Positions 20,475 to 35,798 of a stretch of 35,802 nt of DNA are shown piece after piece. Each line of letters starts with the position of its first letter. The first letter of the stretch is position 1. The notes beneath the pieces were generated by a model. The model was not told the origin of the DNA. It saw only the letters and a list, made by a program, of their open reading frames with translations, and did no database searches. The stretch lies in NCBI GenBank assembly GCA_022712815.1, contig JAFLJW010000404.1, positions 1 to 35,802 on the forward strand, in the 5' to 3' direction. The position numbers and the translations under genes are program-made. This DNA is from Pseudodesulfovibrio sp. (GTDB lineage Bacteria; Desulfobacterota; Desulfovibrionia; Desulfovibrionales; Desulfovibrionaceae).

Positions 20475-22196
20475 TTACTTTAATTCATCGTAGTGAGCCT
20501 GGGCATACTCCAAGCTTGGGTCCATCTTGAGTGCAGCACCGAGATAGTCAAGAGCCTCTTCCGTATTGCCCATGAATTTATGGCACAGACCCAGATTAGC
20601 CAGATCGTGCGGAGAGCCGCTATCGATATCAAGGGACGCCTGAAAATCCCTGGCCGCGTTCTTGTACTTCTCACCCTTGAAATGAGCAACGCCCCTGAGG
20701 TTAAAGAACTCCTTGCATTCCTGATCCAGCTCAATGGCGCGCCCGAGAGGAGAAATGGTCTCTTCCCAAAGTTCTTCCTGAGACAAGGCATACGCCTGAT
20801 AAAATGCAGCCAAAGCACGTTCCTGATTGGCGGGTTGCAGCGGCTCGGCTTCTGCAAACTGGGCAACGGCATACATGGGGTCGTCCATACGCAATGCGAG
20901 CAGCCCTCTGAAAAACGGAAGAAAATAGGCATCAGGATATATTCCCCCGATCACGTCAAGCCCTTCCAAAGCCTCATCAAAATCAACATCCTCCGCCAAA
21001 ATACGGCCCACGAACAGCCCTATGCTCCGGTTGGGTGTACGCTCACGAAAATCAAAACCGGGAACAAAATTATAGTTGGTGGTCACCATCAGATCAGGAT
21101 GTCGAGTATCCACTGCATAGAGCGACGTACCTTTCTCATCCAGCCCTTTGGCCAGTGCCATCAATTCCTTATATATATTATCATGCTCGACTGACGGCAG
21201 AGTATCCAGCGCGACCACAGGTCCCTCTTTCAGCCACCTGACCTGCTCCAGATCGGTAAACTTGGGAAGACCGGATGCTTCGTACACCCGGCTGGTCTCG
21301 AAGTCGCCGGCCAACTGGGCGACCTCAGTGATGGCGCGAATGGCCGCCTTGGCCGGAGATGCAGCCGTACCCGCGGTAAAAACGATCTCGCTCAATGCCG
21401 GGAATGTCCTGGTGTCCCAAGCGATAGCGGCAACAGTGGGAACCGGGTATCCCAAGGTAAAATCCTTCAGAATCAGCGTAATGCCGTTCTTCTCGAAACA
21501 TTCGACCAGACGATTCAGGATAACATCGTCCGAAGATTTCGGATCAATGGTCGGCATGACCTGCCGCGTACGGTCAATAACGGCGCAGACATGCCGCTCG
21601 ACCAACTCGCATCCACCTTGGGAAATGGATTCTTCAAAAGTATTCCCAGCCGATGATCCATTGAATTCGTTCAGCTTCTTGAACCAATCAAGCGGAACAT
21701 ACTCATGCTCGTTTGTGACGATATTCAACGCAGGATGAAATCTCCAACGATTCAGATTCATGACCCTGATCGCTTTTTCATCTGAAATTTCTTCATCCAC
21801 GGAACAAATGATCTTCTTGATATCAATGACCTTTCCCGGCCATTTGGCCTGAGCCTCGGACCAGGTCAATTCCGTGAAGTTGTCGCCATCGGACCAAAAA
21901 CTGAAATAGGAAAATCGTTCCACCAATTCCATGAGAGCGGAGGCCTCAGCCTGCTCCGGGGATGCGCCCTTGCCCATCTGCTTTCGAGTAGGCATGATCT
22001 TTTGAGCTTCAGGGCCACACGTGCTCACGAAAACAGGAATACCAAGCCTCCCGGTATCGACACGGTCGGTCTCGGCCAGCACTCCGGTACATTTCTCGGC
22101 CAGAAGTCCCTTGACCCGATTGACGGTATCCACAGGGTCACAGGCCTTGTCCTGATCAGTGGTATATTCCTTGAAACAATCCTTGAGTTCGATCAC
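20475..22196 (-). CDS. YcaO domain protein with C-terminal TPR region
   Basis: GKGASPEQAEASALMELVERFSYF and NGSSAGNTFEESISQGGCELVERH YcaO motifs; TPR repeats in last ~150 aa; E. coli YcaO-like length. Confidence 0.88.
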   Translation of the reverse strand: MIELKDCFKEYTTDQDKACDPVDTVNRVKGLLAEKCTGVLAETDRVDTGRLGIPVFVSTCGPEAQKIMPTRKQMGKGASPEQAEASALMELVERFSYFSFWSDGDNFTELTWSEAQAKWPGKVIDIKKIICSVDEEISDEKAIRVMNLNRWRFHPALNIVTNEHEYVPLDWFKKLNEFNGSSAGNTFEESISQGGCELVERHVCAVIDRTRQVMPTIDPKSSDDVILNRLVECFEKNGITLILKDFTLGYPVPTVAAIAWDTRTFPALSEIVFTAGTAASPAKAAIRAITEVAQLAGDFETSRVYEASGLPKFTDLEQVRWLKEGPVVALDTLPSVEHDNIYKELMALAKGLDEKGTSLYAVDTRHPDLMVTTNYNFVPGFDFRERTPNRSIGLFVGRILAEDVDFDEALEGLDVIGGIYPDAYFLPFFRGLLALRMDDPMYAVAQFAEAEPLQPANQERALAAFYQAYALSQEELWEETISPLGRAIELDQECKEFFNLRGVAHFKGEKYKNAARDFQASLDIDSGSPHDLANLGLCHKFMGNTEEALDYLGAALKMDPSLEYAQAHYDELK

Positions 22197-28536: not shown

Positions 28537-28737
28537 CTCTTTCGTTAAAGAAAGACGAGACGAGTCAAATCTGTTAGAAAATAATACTACACACGGCCCA
28601 ATTAAAGTACTCCACAGGTGCATTTATTTGACCGGCCAGCTGGCACTTGATGCCCAATCGATATAATATTGATATGGACTTACCCCTGTTTTTCCAGCTA
28701 CAAGGGCTTAATACGTCAAAATTCAGAGGATGATTCA

Positions 28738-29481
28738 TTGCAAAGACGATATATCCCTATCACCATACTGACCGGAATCCTGTTCATCGCAGCCCTCGTT
28801 GGCTATCTGGCCCCGGCTGGGTCTGATGGCCCACCAGTGCGTGTCCTCCTTGCCAACAAGGGTGGCAAGATCCTTTTTGCCCATGAAGCGCACGCCAAGC
28901 GAGAGAAAGAAAACTGTACATCATGCCATCATACGTCCGGGGATGAACAAACGCCTCCGGCCTGTTCCGACTGTCACGTAAAGAAATTCGATGAGATTTT
29001 CATTGCCAGTCACCAGGAGAACATTGACGAAAAACAATGTACATCCTGTCATCATCCGGGCGCGACTATCGAAAAATTCTCTCACGAGCGGCACCAAACT
29101 GAATATGCCGAGGATGATTGTCAGGCCTGCCATCACGACACGGACATAGAGCCTGAACCACAGGCGTGTTCCGATTGCCACGAAAAAGAAGACACCAAGG
29201 ATATTGTGAGCCTGAAAAAGGCAAACCATGCCAAATGCGGTGATTGCCACGAAGATCTGTATGACGAGGGCATCAAGGGATGCACCAATTGCCACACCCG
29301 CGACAAAAGCGTGGCAAAAGAGTCGGAGCCGCAACCCTGTTCAGACTGCCATTCCGAACCCGTGGATCAACTCGTGCCAACCACGATGAATGCGTTCCAC
29401 GGCCAGTGCATGTCCTGCCATGAAAAACAGGGCAAAGGACCGTTTAGTGACGATGCCTGCTACCAATGTCATATGAAATAG
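28738..29481 (+). CDS. Decaheme cytochrome c, membrane-anchored, rnf-associated
   Basis: Ten CXXCH motifs after an N-terminal TM; likely TTG start at 28738 (ORF track starts at 28669). Confidence 0.9.
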   Translation: MQRRYIPITILTGILFIAALVGYLAPAGSDGPPVRVLLANKGGKILFAHEAHAKREKENCTSCHHTSGDEQTPPACSDCHVKKFDEIFIASHQENIDEKQCTSCHHPGATIEKFSHERHQTEYAEDDCQACHHDTDIEPEPQACSDCHEKEDTKDIVSLKKANHAKCGDCHEDLYDEGIKGCTNCHTRDKSVAKESEPQPCSDCHSEPVDQLVPTTMNAFHGQCMSCHEKQGKGPFSDDACYQCHMK

Positions 29482-29494
29482 GGGACCGATAGAT

Positions 29495-30700
29495 ATGACC
29501 ACGTTCAGTTTCAGCCTGCACATCGGAGAAACCGGCCCCCTTGTAAAAGGGTCCGAACCAGACCGACTGCGCATCCCCATCCCATGCCATACTCCTATCC
29601 TCGCCGAAGGCGATCAGGTACTGGCCGGAACCAAAATAGCCATTGCCAACCATGACGGCAGCGGTGATATGCATGCTCCGCTGGCAGGAACCATCAAGGA
29701 TATCCTGCCCGAGTCCATGCTCATCAAAGTCAGCGGTAAAGACAGGGCCAAAGCGAAAAAACCACCGGCAGAAGACGGAGAAACCATCAGAGAATGGCTT
29801 CGTGATCTGGGTGTTTCTGTCAAGAATATTACGCGAAGCACAACCCTGATCATCAATGCGGTTCCGCCCGAACCGGGTATTTCCATCTATGAACCATTGC
29901 TGAGGGACTATCGCAAAACCCTGGAACTGGGACTGGAAACCGTTCAGCGCATTGTGGAATCCTCCAAGATATTCCTGGCAGCAGCCAAGGGCAACCGGGC
30001 TAATGCGTTTGCCAATTGCACAGTCCTGCATGTCACGCCCATCTATCCCAACGGCCTTGATGAAATAGTAGTCAAGACAGTCACCGGTCAGGAAATGCTA
30101 CCTGGCACCCTACCGGATGATACCACCATTCTTTCCGTCAAAGATCTGTATTTCATCGGACGTGTCATGGAAACTGGCCGCCCCATAACCGAAACCATCC
30201 TTACCATCGACAATCAGAACCACTTGATCCGCGTTGGAACGCCTGTGGGTTTTCTGGTCGCAGAGTCCGGTACCATGGTCCAACCAGGCGATAGAATAGT
30301 AATGGATGGCTTGATGCGCGGACTCACCGCCATCAATCTTGAGCAAGGGGTGGATAAGGACACAACCAGTCTCCAGCTTATCCGCGAAGACAAAGGGTTG
30401 AAACCCACTGACAATTTCTGTCTCGGTTGTGGAGAATGTGAACGCCATTGCCCGGCCCGCATCATGCCCGGCATGATCAGCCGCTGTGCCGAGTTCAAGC
30501 AATTCGAACGCGCCGAGAATTTTCATATCCACTCATGCATCGAGTGTGGCATCTGCGGATACTGGTGCAAAGCCCAGCGACCGCTCCTGCAATACATACG
30601 CCTTGCCAAATACGAACTCGCCCTTCTCAGGGAGACAAAAACTCCGTCACAACCACTGGTCGAATTCATTGAAACCGGACAGAACGGAGAGAAAGAATGA
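29495..30700 (+). CDS. rnfC: Electron transport complex subunit RnfC (divergent)
   Basis: RnfC-like barrel sandwich and YPNG...TVTGQEMLPG; two 4Fe-4S motifs CLGCGECERHCP, CIECGICGYWCK. Confidence 0.9.
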   Translation: MTTFSFSLHIGETGPLVKGSEPDRLRIPIPCHTPILAEGDQVLAGTKIAIANHDGSGDMHAPLAGTIKDILPESMLIKVSGKDRAKAKKPPAEDGETIREWLRDLGVSVKNITRSTTLIINAVPPEPGISIYEPLLRDYRKTLELGLETVQRIVESSKIFLAAAKGNRANAFANCTVLHVTPIYPNGLDEIVVKTVTGQEMLPGTLPDDTTILSVKDLYFIGRVMETGRPITETILTIDNQNHLIRVGTPVGFLVAESGTMVQPGDRIVMDGLMRGLTAINLEQGVDKDTTSLQLIREDKGLKPTDNFCLGCGECERHCPARIMPGMISRCAEFKQFERAENFHIHSCIECGICGYWCKAQRPLLQYIRLAKYELALLRETKTPSQPLVEFIETGQNGEKE

Positions 30701-31683
30701 TCCAGCAACTTGAGCCGATACTGACAGTCTCTCCCCCCCCACATGTCCATTGTGGGCGGTCCATAAAAGGCTACATGTCCGAGACCCTTATGGCACTCTT
30801 GCCCGCCGTGGTCATGGCAATCTACATCTTCGGCATTGATGCACTCAGAGTCATGGCCCTTGCATGCACTGTGGCCGTGATCACCGAGACCATCTGTAGC
30901 AAGCTCATGAAACGCGAACAAGCCATCGACGATTTCAGCGCGTTGCTTACCGGATTGCTCTTCGCCTTCCTGCTCCCGGCCTCTTCCCCATGGTGGCTGG
31001 TGACCATCGGCGCAGCTTCAGCCATTTTCCTCGGCAAGATGATCTTTGGCGGTCTGGGAGCCAACCCGCTCAGCTCTCCCCTCGTGGGCTGGGCAATTTG
31101 CCGCATATCATGGGGCGGATTCATGGACACCAACGCAACCATGCTGACATCCAGTCTCGCGGCACCGTTGCAGCAGTTGAAATATTTCGGCCTCCAGTCC
31201 ATTCAATCCATTCAATCATCAAGCCTGATTCTGGGCGAACAACTCGGTGGACTGGGTGAAGTCCAGATTGCCGCCCTGCTGGCCGGTGGTGTATTTCTGC
31301 TCATCCGCCGCCACATCAGATGGGAAATCCCGACCGGATTCATCGCAGGAATCCTGGTCACAGCCTGGATATACCAACTGATCGATCCGACCACATATGC
31401 ATCGCCTCTGTTCCATCTTCTGGCTGGCGGTACACTCTTCGGAGCCTTTTTCCTTGCTACCGACCCGGCATCCTCACCCATCGGATGCATCCCGTCCGTC
31501 CTGTTCGGACTGACTGCCGGGGCCATGGTTATTATCATTCGCGTATATGGCATCTATCCGGACGGCGTTCCGTTCGCCATACTGCTGACAAACCTGTTCA
31601 CACCGCTGTTTGACCGCATCCGCCCAAAACCGTTTGGCGGTCCTCACAAACTCATGCAGAAAGGTATGGAGGACGCAACATGA
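30697..31683 (+). CDS. rnfD: Electron transport complex subunit RnfD
   Basis: Polytopic; SPPPHVHCGRS N-terminus, LGANPLSSPLVGWA, FLATDPASSP motifs. Confidence 0.93.
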   Translation: MIQQLEPILTVSPPPHVHCGRSIKGYMSETLMALLPAVVMAIYIFGIDALRVMALACTVAVITETICSKLMKREQAIDDFSALLTGLLFAFLLPASSPWWLVTIGAASAIFLGKMIFGGLGANPLSSPLVGWAICRISWGGFMDTNATMLTSSLAAPLQQLKYFGLQSIQSIQSSSLILGEQLGGLGEVQIAALLAGGVFLLIRRHIRWEIPTGFIAGILVTAWIYQLIDPTTYASPLFHLLAGGTLFGAFFLATDPASSPIGCIPSVLFGLTAGAMVIIIRVYGIYPDGVPFAILLTNLFTPLFDRIRPKPFGGPHKLMQKGMEDAT

Positions 31684-32258
31684 GAGAAATGCTGCGGATG
31701 ATCTTCGTCCTCTCCCTGATCTGCGGCCTGTCCGGCCTGACCCTCGCCACAGTGCGTCAGGCCACCAGCGAGCGTATTGAAGAGCAGGTCATGACCTTTG
31801 TGCAAGGGCCAGCCCTTGAACAGATTTTCAGCGATCATGACAATAACCCGGTCAAAGACCGTAGAATTTTCAATTTACCAAACGGCCCTGTAACGGTCTT
31901 TCCGGCCCTGAAAGACGGCAAGCTCACAGGTGTGGCCATCGAAACCTTTGGCAAGGGCTACGGCGGCAACATCGGCGTCATGGTCGGATTCACCACCGAT
32001 GGCAGCAAGCTGGAAGGCATTGGCATCACCACCATGAAGGAAACACCCGGTCTGGGTGCCCGCCTTGTCGAACCTCAATACCGCGACCAGTTCAAGGGCC
32101 ACTCCACAGACAAGATCGCCCTGAAAAAACAAGGCGGCGACATCGCTGCCATCTCCGGGGCGACCATCTCATCCACCGGCTCGGTGGCTGCGGTCAATGA
32201 TGCACTTAAGATATTCAATCAAATCAAGGACAAGCTCCCCACTGCCTGGGGTTCCTAG
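31680..32258 (+). CDS. rnfG: Electron transport complex subunit RnfG
   Basis: TM plus FMN-binding domain with SGATIS flavinylation motif. Confidence 0.93.
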   Translation: MREMLRMIFVLSLICGLSGLTLATVRQATSERIEEQVMTFVQGPALEQIFSDHDNNPVKDRRIFNLPNGPVTVFPALKDGKLTGVAIETFGKGYGGNIGVMVGFTTDGSKLEGIGITTMKETPGLGARLVEPQYRDQFKGHSTDKIALKKQGGDIAAISGATISSTGSVAAVNDALKIFNQIKDKLPTAWGS

Positions 32259-32267
32259 GATACGACT

Positions 32268-32945
32268 ATGAGCAGATTGTGGAAAGAATTCTCGAAAGGT
32301 CTCTGGAAAGACCTGCCCCCGTTCAAGCTGGTGCTCGGCCTCTGCCCGGTGCTGGCAGTGACAAAGACCGCTGACAACGGCCTTGGCATGGGACTGGCAG
32401 TCATCTTCGTCCTGACCATGTCCAACATGCTGGTTTCGATGATACGCAAACTCATCCCCACCAAGGTCCGCATCGCCTGCTTCATCGTGGTCGCCGCATC
32501 GCTGGTTGTCTGCGTCGAGCTTCTCATGCAGGCCTATGCATACCCGCTCTATCTGCAACTCGGAATTTTCGTCCCGCTCATCGTGGTCAACTGCATCATC
32601 CTGGGCCGGGCCGAGGCCTTTGCCTCCAAGAACCCGGTCTATCTGGCCGTGGCCGACGGACTCGGCATGGGCATTGGCTTTACCATCTCCCTGACCTTTC
32701 TCGGTTCCATCCGTGAACTTTTCGGATACGGCACATTGTTCGGCACGCAGATCATGGGCGACTGGTTCCAGCCCGTCACCTTCATGGTCGAGGCCCCCGG
32801 CGCATTCGTCTGTCTTGGCCTCATCCTGGCCGGAATGAATGCCCTGACCAACTGGCAGCGCAAGAGCAAGGGACTGGAAGCCATTGAGGGACCGGTTCAC
32901 GATTGCAAGACGTGTGGCATGTGCGCCACCAAGCCGGGAGCATAA
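32268..32945 (+). CDS. rnfE: Electron transport complex subunit RnfE
   Basis: GLCPVLAVT and VVNCIILGRAEAFA motifs; extra CKTCGMC tail. Confidence 0.95.
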   Translation: MSRLWKEFSKGLWKDLPPFKLVLGLCPVLAVTKTADNGLGMGLAVIFVLTMSNMLVSMIRKLIPTKVRIACFIVVAASLVVCVELLMQAYAYPLYLQLGIFVPLIVVNCIILGRAEAFASKNPVYLAVADGLGMGIGFTISLTFLGSIRELFGYGTLFGTQIMGDWFQPVTFMVEAPGAFVCLGLILAGMNALTNWQRKSKGLEAIEGPVHDCKTCGMCATKPGA

Positions 32946-32954
32946 GGGAACGTC

Positions 32955-33530
32955 ATGGATTATTTCGTACTCGTCATAGCCGCCATATTCGTCAACAACA
33001 TCGTGTTGGCGCAATATCTGGGCAACTGCCCGTTCGTTGGCACATCCAAGGAATCAAGCGTGGCCATGGGCATGGGGCTGGCCGTTGTTTTTGTTGCGAC
33101 CCTGGCCGCGGTCATTACCTGGTGCGTCCAGAAATTCCTGCTGGCCCCCAACAATCTTGGATATCTCCAGACCATCACATTCATTCTGGTCATTGCCGCA
33201 CTGGTCCAATTCGTCGAGATGTTCCTGAAAAAAGTCATACCGCCGCTCTATAAATCTCTGGGTATCTTCCTGCCCCTGATCACCACCAACTGTGCGGTGC
33301 TCGGTATCGCCATCATCTGCCAGCGCGAAGAATTCACACTGATCGAAACCATCTTGTTTTCCATTGCATCCGGTGTTGGTTTCCTGCTCGCCCTCGTGGT
33401 CCTTGCCAGCATCCGGGAACGACTCGATCTGGCGCATGTCCCTGTCAGCCTCAAGGGAACTCCACTGGCATTGATTCTGGCCGGACTCATGTCCCTTGCA
33501 TTCTTCGCCTTCAAAGGCATGGCCTCTTAG
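32955..33530 (+). CDS. rnfA: Electron transport complex subunit RnfA
   Basis: NNIVLAQYLGNCPFVGTSK, TTNCAVLG motifs. Confidence 0.95.
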   Translation: MDYFVLVIAAIFVNNIVLAQYLGNCPFVGTSKESSVAMGMGLAVVFVATLAAVITWCVQKFLLAPNNLGYLQTITFILVIAALVQFVEMFLKKVIPPLYKSLGIFLPLITTNCAVLGIAIICQREEFTLIETILFSIASGVGFLLALVVLASIRERLDLAHVPVSLKGTPLALILAGLMSLAFFAFKGMAS

Positions 33531-33536
33531 GAGTTT

Positions 33537-35648
33537 ATGGATATGATCACTGCATCGGTACTCATCCTTCTCGGCATCGGATTCACGGCGGCTGTCATTC
33601 TGGCCGTGGCATCCAAGGTGCTCTATGTCTATGAAGATCCCCGCATCGCCGAAGTGGAAAGCGTGCTGGCCGGAGCCAACTGCGGCGGTTGCGGATATCC
33701 CGGTTGCGCCGGAGCCGCCCAAGGTGTTGTCGAGGGCAAGGCCGGAGCCACGGTCTGCGTCATCGGCGGCGAAGAAGTCGCCACAAATGTGGCGGCAATC
33801 ATGGGCCTTGAATTTTCGACCATGGAAAAACAAATCGCCTTTGTGGATTGTACCGGCGGAACCCGTGCCGAAGATGCCTATATTTATGAAGGAGCGAAAG
33901 ACTGCCGCGCACAGCACTTGCTGTACAACGGTTCAAAGCTATGCCCTGAGGGATGCCTCGGCTACGGCACCTGCGTTGGAGCATGTCAGTTCGGAGCCAT
34001 CGAAATGGGTCCCAACGGCTACCCGGTAGTCGATCCCGACCTCTGCACCGCTTGCGGCGGCTGCGCACAAGTCTGCCCACGCGGTGTCATCACCATCTGG
34101 GGCATGTCCGCCCGGATCACGCATCTTAACGAAACCACCGACTGCCTTGCCCCGTGCCGCCAACGCTGCCCCGGGCAGATCAATATCCCCCGCTACATCG
34201 AACAGACGTCTCGCGGCGACTATGCCGGAGCACTCGAAACCATCCGCGAACGAATTCCCATGCCCCTGTCCATTGGCCGCATTTGCCCGCATCCCTGCGA
34301 GGACGTCTGCCGCCGTGATCATGTGGATGAGTCAGTCGGCATCAATATGATCAAACGCTTTGTTGCCGATTGGGAAATGAACTCCGGTGAACGGCTGCCA
34401 ATTTCATGCGCACCGGATACCGGCCGCAAAATCGCGGTTGTCGGCGGTGGTCCGGCCGGACTCTCCTGCGCCTTTTTCCTGCGCCGCCTCGGACACAGCC
34501 CGACTATCTTTGAATCCATGCCCAAACTGGGCGGTCAGCTCAGGTACGGCATACCCGAATACCGCCTGCCAAAGGCTGTTCTGGATTGGGAAATAGAAGG
34601 TATCCTGAATCTCGGTATCGACGTGGTGTATGAAAAATCCTTTGGCATCGACTACGATCTCGACTCCCTGAATACAGACGGATTCGAGGCTACCTTCCTC
34701 GGCATCGGCGCATGGATGAACATGACCCTCCGCATCGACAAAGAGGACGCCGAAGGTGTTGAAACCGGAACAGAATTCCTGACCAAGGTTGGTCTTGGAA
34801 TTGATACGGGCATAGGCAAAAAAGTCGTTGTCATCGGCGGCGGAAATACCGCCATCGACACAGCGCGTACCAGTGTTCGCCTGGGGTCGCATGTGACACT
34901 CATGTACCGCCGGACCAGAAACGAAATGCCCGCCAACATGGAAGAGATCCTTGCCGCAGAGGAAGAAAACGTAAACTACCTCTACCTCGCGGCCCCGACC
35001 AGAGTCATCACCGATGACTCCAACAAGGTCACCCATATCGAATACATCAAGATGGAATTGGGAGAGCCTGATGCCTCGGGCAGACGCAGTCCTAAGCCCA
35101 TCGAAGGCTCAGAGACGCTTCTCGAAGCAGACAGCATCTACACGGCCATCGGTCAAAAACCTGAGCTTTCCTGTCTGTATGATGAATCCGGCTCTTGCTC
35201 TCTCAAAGAAACCAAATGGCGCACACTGGACGCCAACCCGGACACGCTCCAGACCGCACTGCCCAATGTCTTTACCGGCGGAGACATGCACACCGGCCCA
35301 TCTCTTGTCATCACCGCCCTTGGCGAAGGCAGAAAGGCGGCCCGGTCCATCCACCAGTACCTGAATGAAGACCAGCCATATGTATCGCACAAGACACAGC
35401 GGGAAATGATTCCGTACACGATGTTCACCCATGTTCCCGATGTCGGACTTCGGACCAGATCAAAAATGCCAGATCTCGTGGAATGTGACGAGCGAATCTG
35501 CACTTTCAAGGAAGTCGAAGGCGCACTGAACGCCGAAGAAGCCAAGCACGAGACATGCCGATGCCTCCGCTGCGGACTAACATGCTACAACCGCGATATG
35601 GTTGACGGGCAGGAGTGCGTGAGTGAGGAGTGCGTTAAAAATCCATAA
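33537..35648 (+). CDS. rnfB: RnfB fused to GltD/NfnB-like FAD-dependent NAD(P) oxidoreductase
   Basis: RnfB N-terminus (GANCGGCGYPGCAGAA; two 4Fe-4S motifs) then GltD-type VVGGGPAGLSCA and VVIGGGNTAIDTARTS...YRRTRNEMPA. Confidence 0.93.
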   Translation: MDMITASVLILLGIGFTAAVILAVASKVLYVYEDPRIAEVESVLAGANCGGCGYPGCAGAAQGVVEGKAGATVCVIGGEEVATNVAAIMGLEFSTMEKQIAFVDCTGGTRAEDAYIYEGAKDCRAQHLLYNGSKLCPEGCLGYGTCVGACQFGAIEMGPNGYPVVDPDLCTACGGCAQVCPRGVITIWGMSARITHLNETTDCLAPCRQRCPGQINIPRYIEQTSRGDYAGALETIRERIPMPLSIGRICPHPCEDVCRRDHVDESVGINMIKRFVADWEMNSGERLPISCAPDTGRKIAVVGGGPAGLSCAFFLRRLGHSPTIFESMPKLGGQLRYGIPEYRLPKAVLDWEIEGILNLGIDVVYEKSFGIDYDLDSLNTDGFEATFLGIGAWMNMTLRIDKEDAEGVETGTEFLTKVGLGIDTGIGKKVVVIGGGNTAIDTARTSVRLGSHVTLMYRRTRNEMPANMEEILAAEEENVNYLYLAAPTRVITDDSNKVTHIEYIKMELGEPDASGRRSPKPIEGSETLLEADSIYTAIGQKPELSCLYDESGSCSLKETKWRTLDANPDTLQTALPNVFTGGDMHTGPSLVITALGEGRKAARSIHQYLNEDQPYVSHKTQREMIPYTMFTHVPDVGLRTRSKMPDLVECDERICTFKEVEGALNAEEAKHETCRCLRCGLTCYNRDMVDGQECVSEECVKNP

Positions 35649-35722: not shown

Positions 35723-35798
35723 GGTCGGTTAGCTCAGTTGGGAGAGCACCGCATTCACACTGCGGGGGTCGTTGGTTCAAGCCCAATACCGACCACCA
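35723..35798 (+). tRNA. tRNA-Val (anticodon CAC), CCA encoded
   Basis: GGTCGGT/ACCGACC acceptor stem, TAGCTCAGTTGGGAGAGCA D-arm, CCGCA-TTCACAC-TGCGG anticodon arm, GGTTCAAGCC T-arm. Confidence 0.93.

Follow-up and report, generated by a model that had tools for sequence, protein, structure and literature searches.

In the canonical Rnf complex, electrons take a U-shaped path, which runs from RnfB through RnfA/E to the FMN on RnfG, and from there by way of the FMN on RnfD, a riboflavin, the RnfC clusters and the RnfC FMN to NAD+ (PMC11889175). RnfC holds FMN in Clostridium tetanomorphum (PMC9588780) and in Acetobacterium woodii, where it has also been seen with NADH (PMC11889175). The FMN on RnfD is bound covalently to a threonine, which is Thr153 in C. 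tetanomorphum (PMC9588780) and T156 in A. woodii (PMC11889175). The Rnf of Desulfovibrio vulgaris and D. alaskensis, encoded by dhcA-rnfCDGEABF, is usually described as a ferredoxin:NADH oxidoreductase (PMC4215793, PMC4841214). An RnfC without the NADH domain, together with an RnfB of ~700 aa that carries an NAD-binding domain, has already been reported from Desulfobacula toluolica Tol2 and for Rnf2 of Desulfococcus multivorans (PMC5109826).

We analyzed a stretch of 35,802 nucleotides from Pseudodesulfovibrio sp. (contig JAFLJW010000404.1), which is called the window throughout. The best named relatives of the genome are Pseudodesulfovibrio MAGs (67-81% identity). The window contains the six-subunit Rnf core (RnfABCDGE) in one operon, with the RnfA/E cysteines, the RnfG SGAT and the RnfB cysteine motifs. 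The features are as follows.

28669 to 29481, plus strand: decahaem c-type cytochrome with 10 CXXCH, which opens the operon and has a hydrophobic segment at its N-terminus (Pfam Cytochrom_CIII; motif count).
29495 to 30700, plus strand: rnfC, 401 aa, FMN/NADH site lost, Fe-S domain intact (profiles, alignments, AlphaFold model).
29788 to 29880, plus strand: stretch of the loop loss in RnfC; G-x-GGA-x-FPT-x-VKL should follow about codon 107 (29813-29815) but is absent (alignments).
30419 to 30451, plus strand: first 4Fe-4S motif of RnfC, C309-x2-C-x2-C-x3-C319-P, kept (invariant in a 41-sequence alignment).
30536 to 30568, plus strand: second 4Fe-4S motif of RnfC, C348-x2-C-x2-C-x3-C358, kept (invariant in the same alignment).
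30697 to 31683, plus strand: rnfD, 328 aa (TIGR01946, 278.9 bits).
31162 to 31164, plus strand: A156 of RnfD, within SSLAAPLQQ, where canonical RnfD has its FMN-anchoring threonine (alignment).
31680 to 32258, plus strand: rnfG, DVU2794 subfamily, SGATIS FMN anchor intact with Thr162 at 32163-32165 (NF045876 RnfG_DVU2794, 296.5 bits, cut-off 205).
32268 to 32945, plus strand: rnfE, conserved cysteines kept (profile match; column audit).
32955 to 33530, plus strand: rnfA, conserved cysteines kept (profile match; column audit).
33537 to 34106, plus strand: RnfB part of a fused gene, residues about 1-190, all conserved cysteines kept (TIGR01944, above cut-off).
34131 to 35645, plus strand: C-terminal fusion partner of RnfB, an NfnB/GltD-like FAD-NAD(P) domain (Fer4_20, Pyr_redox_2).

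The gene order, the decahaem cytochrome in first position (the counterpart of Desulfovibrio dhcA) and the RnfG subfamily are those of the D. vulgaris and D. alaskensis operon (PMC4215793, PMC4841214). That operon ends with rnfF/ApbE, whereas a tRNA-Val (cac, 35723-35798) follows directly after rnfB in the window, so that apbE (rnfF in D. alaskensis) does not adjoin the operon. The only ApbE flavin transferase found in the genome is located on another contig (C314), in an open frame of 757 codons. Outside the rnf operon, at 20475-22196, the window encodes a YcaO-domain protein with C-terminal TPR repeats. A second Rnf operon of the same genome (G000:C8; L053, L002) has a multihaem cytochrome, a loopless RnfC, which is 36% identical to the RnfC of the window, and a fused RnfB.

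The fused RnfB of the window has 703 aa, with Pyr_redox_2 and Fer4_20, and resembles in this respect the RnfB of about 700 aa with NAD-binding sites in Tol2-type Rnf (PMC5109826). Its FAD motif (GGGPAG), its NAD(P) motif (GGGNTAID...YRR) and its Fe-S cysteines are all intact, and the domain matches chains of Nfn, formate dehydrogenase and glutamate synthase (best E 3e-121). In D. multivorans the rnf2 cluster includes a cytochrome gene (PMC5109826); the window shares this feature, but its cytochrome has 10 haem motifs and is not the small 15-kDa protein found there. Desulfovibrionaceae operons that contain a decahaem cytochrome, and in which an 'FAD-dependent oxidoreductase' occupies the position of rnfB, were described in PMC11434368, which calls rnfB lost. 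In the window, however, RnfB is the N-terminal part of this same oxidoreductase, with a complete set of conserved cysteines.

An earlier note on this DNA had claimed that RnfC lacks the GLGGAGFPT-type loop at 29788-29880. Translation, profiles and alignments bear this out, and the letters and coordinates that it quoted are correct. Where canonical RnfC reads GIVGMGGATFPTHVKL ... IINGAECEPY, the window protein (residues about 98-140, 29788-29914: IREWLRDLGVSVKNITRSTTLIINAVPPEPGISIYEPLLRD) has no counterpart of the first part and continues with IINAVPPEPG. The V-G-x-GG-A-x-F-P-T-x-V-K-L of canonical RnfC, the loop of which is mostly GGAAFP or GGATFP, falls into a clean gap between G106 and the strand with N121. 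This asparagine is retained, and AECEPY has become AVPPEPG, an alteration that the note had also recognized. An equivalent Gly-rich loop elsewhere in the protein, named in the note as speaking against its claim, was not found; there is not even a GG dipeptide in all 401 residues. The profile searches agree with this picture. Pfam Complex1_51K scores 20 bits against a cut-off of 31.2, with a match that starts at profile position 27, so that the first 26 positions of this FMN-binding domain are unmatched. NCBIfam rnfC scores 159.7 bits against a cut-off of 245.95 and matches only from model position 149. An SLBB (soluble-ligand-binding) domain has no Pfam match at E <= 0.001. The absence of both the NADH-ubiquinone oxidoreductase domain and SLBB is what PMC5109826 describes for the RnfC of Tol2-type Rnf.

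The loss extends well beyond the loop. QGAEKQ has become NGLDEI, and while the note had counted YPNG...TVTG among the conserved parts, only YP and part of the helix are retained. IEDNK and the asparagine of VQNV are also gone, so that none of the canonical NuoF-like site (G-x-GGA-x-FPT, AECEPY, IEDNK, YPQGAEKQL, VQNV) persists in its usual form. We audited 45 loop-containing and 103 loopless RnfC sequences over all columns that are at least 93% conserved in the loop-containing set. The loopless proteins lose VGxGGAxFP, VK, EC (of AECEPY), E-NK (of IEDNK), Q-EK (of YPQGAEK) and N (of VQNV), and retain all eight Fe-S cysteines. We take the lost segments, going by structures of NuoF and RnfC, to line the FMN/NADH pocket. 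Because QGAEKQ, IEDNK and the VQNV asparagine are changed or lost besides the loop, what these alignments indicate is the loss of the whole pocket and not of one loop only.

As the note had stated, both 4Fe-4S motifs are kept: C309/312/315/319 and C348/351/354/358 are invariant in 41 sequences, in which N121 and P185 with Y184 are conserved as well. An AlphaFold model computed from this alignment has a pLDDT of 89.7. Its best PDB matches are the RnfC proteins of Azotobacter vinelandii, A. woodii and C. tetanomorphum (TM-score about 0.8 to 8rbq, 9eri and 7zc6), which identifies the RnfC fold; NqrA follows next. In a phmmer search the only close solved relatives were the same three RnfC proteins, and NqrA is a weak sequence match. 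The dN/dS of about 0.11-0.15 against four relatives indicates purifying selection. The note was thus right to see a specific loss and not general decay, with the intact Fe-S domain as further evidence. The loss is wider than the loop, it is shared by a whole clade, and this kind of RnfC was described before in PMC5109826. The low scores of RnfC below the curated family cut-offs are accordingly due to the lost FMN/NADH site, without decay. Judged by these residues, the RnfC of the window is very probably not an NAD+ reductase.

RnfD has changed together with RnfC. The threonine of D-x-x-S/T-x-A-T-P-L is present in all 44 loop-type operons with letters at this position, and in only 5 of 103 loopless ones. 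In the window its place is taken by A156, the preceding loop is shortened and ATPL is absent. At the probable counterpart of N123, the asparagine that binds riboflavin in A. woodii, the window has a serine; the asparagine is rarely retained in Desulfovibrionales, and the RnfD aspartate mostly is. The same column audit showed that loopless operons keep the RnfG SGAT, the RnfA/E cysteines and all RnfB cysteines. A third arrangement, with a loopless RnfC and an RnfD that has the canonical ATPL threonine, occurs at six loci (L142, L145, L150, L170, L182, L183; families f25, f40, f46); rnfB is located upstream of rnfC in this arrangement wherever it was found.

The complex thus shares with the canonical Rnf of A. 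woodii, C. tetanomorphum and A. vinelandii the six-subunit core, the cofactor residues of RnfA/E, RnfB and RnfG and the RnfC fold. It differs from them in lacking the FMN/NADH site of RnfC and the covalent-FMN threonine of RnfD, and in having a cytochrome and a fused RnfB. The phylum sample of Desulfobacterota comprised 45 loop-containing operons from 28 families and 109 loopless operons, likewise from 28 families. A multihaem cytochrome adjoins rnfC in none of the 45 loop-containing operons vs 87 of the 109 loopless ones; by family the numbers are 0/28 and 18/28 (Fisher p = 1.2e-7). These cytochromes lie just upstream of rnfC and have 4-10 CXXCH. RnfB is fused to an NfnB/GltD-like flavoprotein in 0/45 loop-containing and 55/109 loopless operons (0/28 and 12/28 by family, p = 1e-4), a count from a search limited to the RnfB domain, which leaves stand-alone GltD-like genes uncounted. 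The families are not fully independent: three changes of type suffice on the RnfD tree, which points to a few old events and not to many. Eight families and eleven genomes contain both types of RnfC, and the rule of co-occurrence holds in each of the eleven genomes. As an outside control we used 30 operons from another phylum; all 30 have the loop and ATPL, and no multihaem gene lies within 1.5 kb.

In the two best-sampled Desulfovibrionales families all 59 cytochrome-linked RnfC proteins lack the loop, and the cytochrome is located beside rnfC in 59/59. On this sample the loss is a property of the whole clade and not a peculiarity of the window gene. RnfB is unfused in 24 of these 59 Desulfovibrionaceae-type loopless operons, and we therefore rejected the fusion alone as the cause of the loop loss. 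Neither cytochrome nor fusion was found in 13 loopless operons, some of which are truncated.

Several further arrangements were observed. In the Desulfovibrionales relatives L097, L098 (f5) and L180 (f3) the loop is replaced, e.g. by VDFDKDTVPLAVKL, and not deleted; their RnfC is loopless, no cytochrome is present and RnfB is unfused. Fusions with a degraded NAD(P) motif (GGGNTAID...YRR) and a retained FAD motif occur at L061, L065, L068, L070, L072, L079, L080 and several f54/f39 loci, which suggests that the fused domain may have lost the use of NAD(P)H in those clades. A stand-alone GltD/NfnB-like gene is located on the same strand a few kb downstream of the canonical rnf operons at L193, L196, L197, L201, L204, L206, L208 and L212; these genes are possibly related to the source of the RnfB fusion.

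Going by the conserved residues, only the return half of the U-shaped path is dismantled, and the outward half, with the RnfB clusters, the iron-sulfur centre of RnfA/E and the FMN of RnfG, is intact. From the sequence features and their co-occurrence we infer the absence of bound flavins, the direction of electron flow and the acceptor. We give an even chance to the reading that the Rnf of the window is a cytochrome-linked pump, from which electrons of ferredoxin, and perhaps of NAD(P)H, would exit via RnfG to a periplasmic cytochrome c. A little short of even is our confidence that this holds in general for the commonest Rnf of the Desulfovibrionales, a deep Desulfobacterota branch: it would then not be a ferredoxin:NAD+ oxidoreductase, but a one-way transmembrane pump that has lost the RnfC and RnfD flavins, makes no U-turn and passes electrons from ferredoxin or NAD(P)H via RnfG to periplasmic cytochrome c. 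RnfB would receive its electrons from reduced ferredoxin and possibly, by way of the fused flavoprotein, from NAD(P)H. They would cross the membrane via RnfA/E, where ion transport would be coupled, to the FMN on RnfG, and from RnfG they would enter the periplasmic cytochrome c pool (the decahaem cytochrome of the operon or type I c3) without returning through RnfD and RnfC. RnfC would be retained as a structural or accessory Fe-S subunit. The system might also run in reverse, with periplasmic electrons and the ion gradient producing reduced ferredoxin.

The multihaem cytochrome beside the rnf genes makes an exit from RnfG to periplasmic cytochrome c the simplest reading. From the A. woodii structure ion pumping was assigned to RnfA/E, and electron transfer only to RnfD (PMC11889175), so that the coupling step could survive the loss of the RnfD flavin. 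For two-subunit Nqr/Rnf-like complexes, in which the flavin threonine of NqrB/RnfD is also missing, a one-way flow of NAD(P)H electrons to extracytosolic acceptors was proposed (PMC11334425). The Rnf of Methanosarcina acetivorans is likewise encoded with a c-type cytochrome, a multihaem one, and was reported not to use NAD(P) (PMC4023990); unlike that of the window, it is archaeal and linked to methanophenazine. Attempts to demonstrate gradient-coupled ferredoxin:NAD+ activity in D. alaskensis vesicles were unsuccessful, and the proton-motive force was reduced in an rnfA mutant (PMC4841214). D. alaskensis needs Rnf on H2, formate and ethanol (PMC4215793). Under most conditions, however, it can do without dhcA (PMC4215793); this dispensability counts against an exit via RnfG in so far as the DhcA cytochrome is not the sole acceptor. 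The 13 loopless operons without cytochrome and fusion and the five loopless RnfD proteins with threonine also speak against it. The strict conservation of the eight RnfC cysteines suggests that electrons still pass through RnfC, which an exit via RnfG leaves unexplained. We know of no measurement of electrons passing from RnfG to a cytochrome in these bacteria.

The conserved cysteines would be accounted for if the NAD(P) site had moved. Electrons would then still make the U-turn to the RnfC clusters and continue to the FAD/NAD(P) domain that RnfB carries as a fusion, and the complex would remain a ferredoxin:NAD(P)+ oxidoreductase. In Rnf structures RnfB lies next to RnfC (PMC9588780), the fusion is found only with loopless RnfC, the FAD and NAD(P) motifs of the fused domain are intact in the window, and the physiology of D. 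alaskensis is compatible with a moved site as well as with an exit via RnfG. However, the RnfD that is needed as return carrier has no FMN threonine, and a reductase on the ferredoxin-binding subunit could bypass the pump. Furthermore, the 24 unfused operons among 59 have no such domain on RnfB, and the degraded NAD(P) motifs of several fused clades weaken the relocation as a general rule. We consider it unlikely, but worth keeping in view.

The fused domain could also be an entry and not an exit. NAD(P)H would come in there, as NADH does at NqrF, and its electrons would finally reduce menaquinone or another carrier, while RnfC would serve as an NqrA-like scaffold. In Na+-NQR the homologue of RnfC, NqrA, has lost both FMN and Fe-S, and NqrF puts a flavin NADH module on the input side, at the position of RnfB (PMC11889175; PMC4014512). 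NqrA is also the next-best fold match of our RnfC model, besides the weak match in sequence. But both RnfC clusters and the ferredoxin-binding RnfB with all its cysteines are kept in the window, while Na+-NQR and the two-subunit Nqr/Rnf-like complexes have neither RnfB nor RnfC clusters; the quinone-binding NqrB keeps the FMN threonine that the window RnfD lacks, and many operons have no fusion. This layout is somewhat less likely than a moved site.

The RnfC clusters may instead pass single electrons to a soluble cytoplasmic partner other than NAD+, such as a ferredoxin-like protein, Nfn or Hdr-Flox. This would agree with conserved clusters and the loss of FMN, the converter between one and two electrons, and PMC5109826 calls for the identification of an acceptor that is not NAD+. 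The missing RnfD flavin anchor, and the fact that the sole constant partner gene in the operons is a cytochrome of periplasmic type, make it improbable. Continued binding of FMN and NAD(H) by RnfC at a diverged site that escapes sequence comparison is very improbable; the RnfC fold and N121, P185 and Y184 are kept, but the conserved FMN/NADH segments have all disappeared together, and 59/59 Desulfovibrionaceae-type operons have the loop deleted. An assembly error, a frameshift, chance or a decaying copy can practically be discounted and was rejected, since, even though the source assembly is fragmented (467 contigs, 82% complete), all related operons sampled share the gap, the frame is open and dN/dS is as low as about 0.11.

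An RnfC without the NADH domain is, as PMC5109826 reports, already known from related bacteria. What the present comparison of sequences adds is the co-occurrence rule across the phylum, the loss of the RnfD threonine and the persistence of RnfB inside the 'FAD-dependent oxidoreductase'. The description of Tol2-type Rnf in the text of PMC5109826 compared here does not mention the loss of the RnfD threonine, which the window shows. Among the papers compared we found no earlier report of this loss or of the clade-wide rule; the RnfD change may have been mentioned elsewhere before. In models of how Desulfovibrio conserves energy, Rnf is a ferredoxin:NADH oxidoreductase. If RnfC cannot bind NADH and RnfD has no flavin anchor, another acceptor, probably the periplasmic cytochrome pool, would be needed to balance electrons and ions when cells grow on H2, formate and ethanol. 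The rule that the loop never occurs together with an adjacent cytochrome or an RnfB fusion makes this idea testable from a handful of features in each genome.
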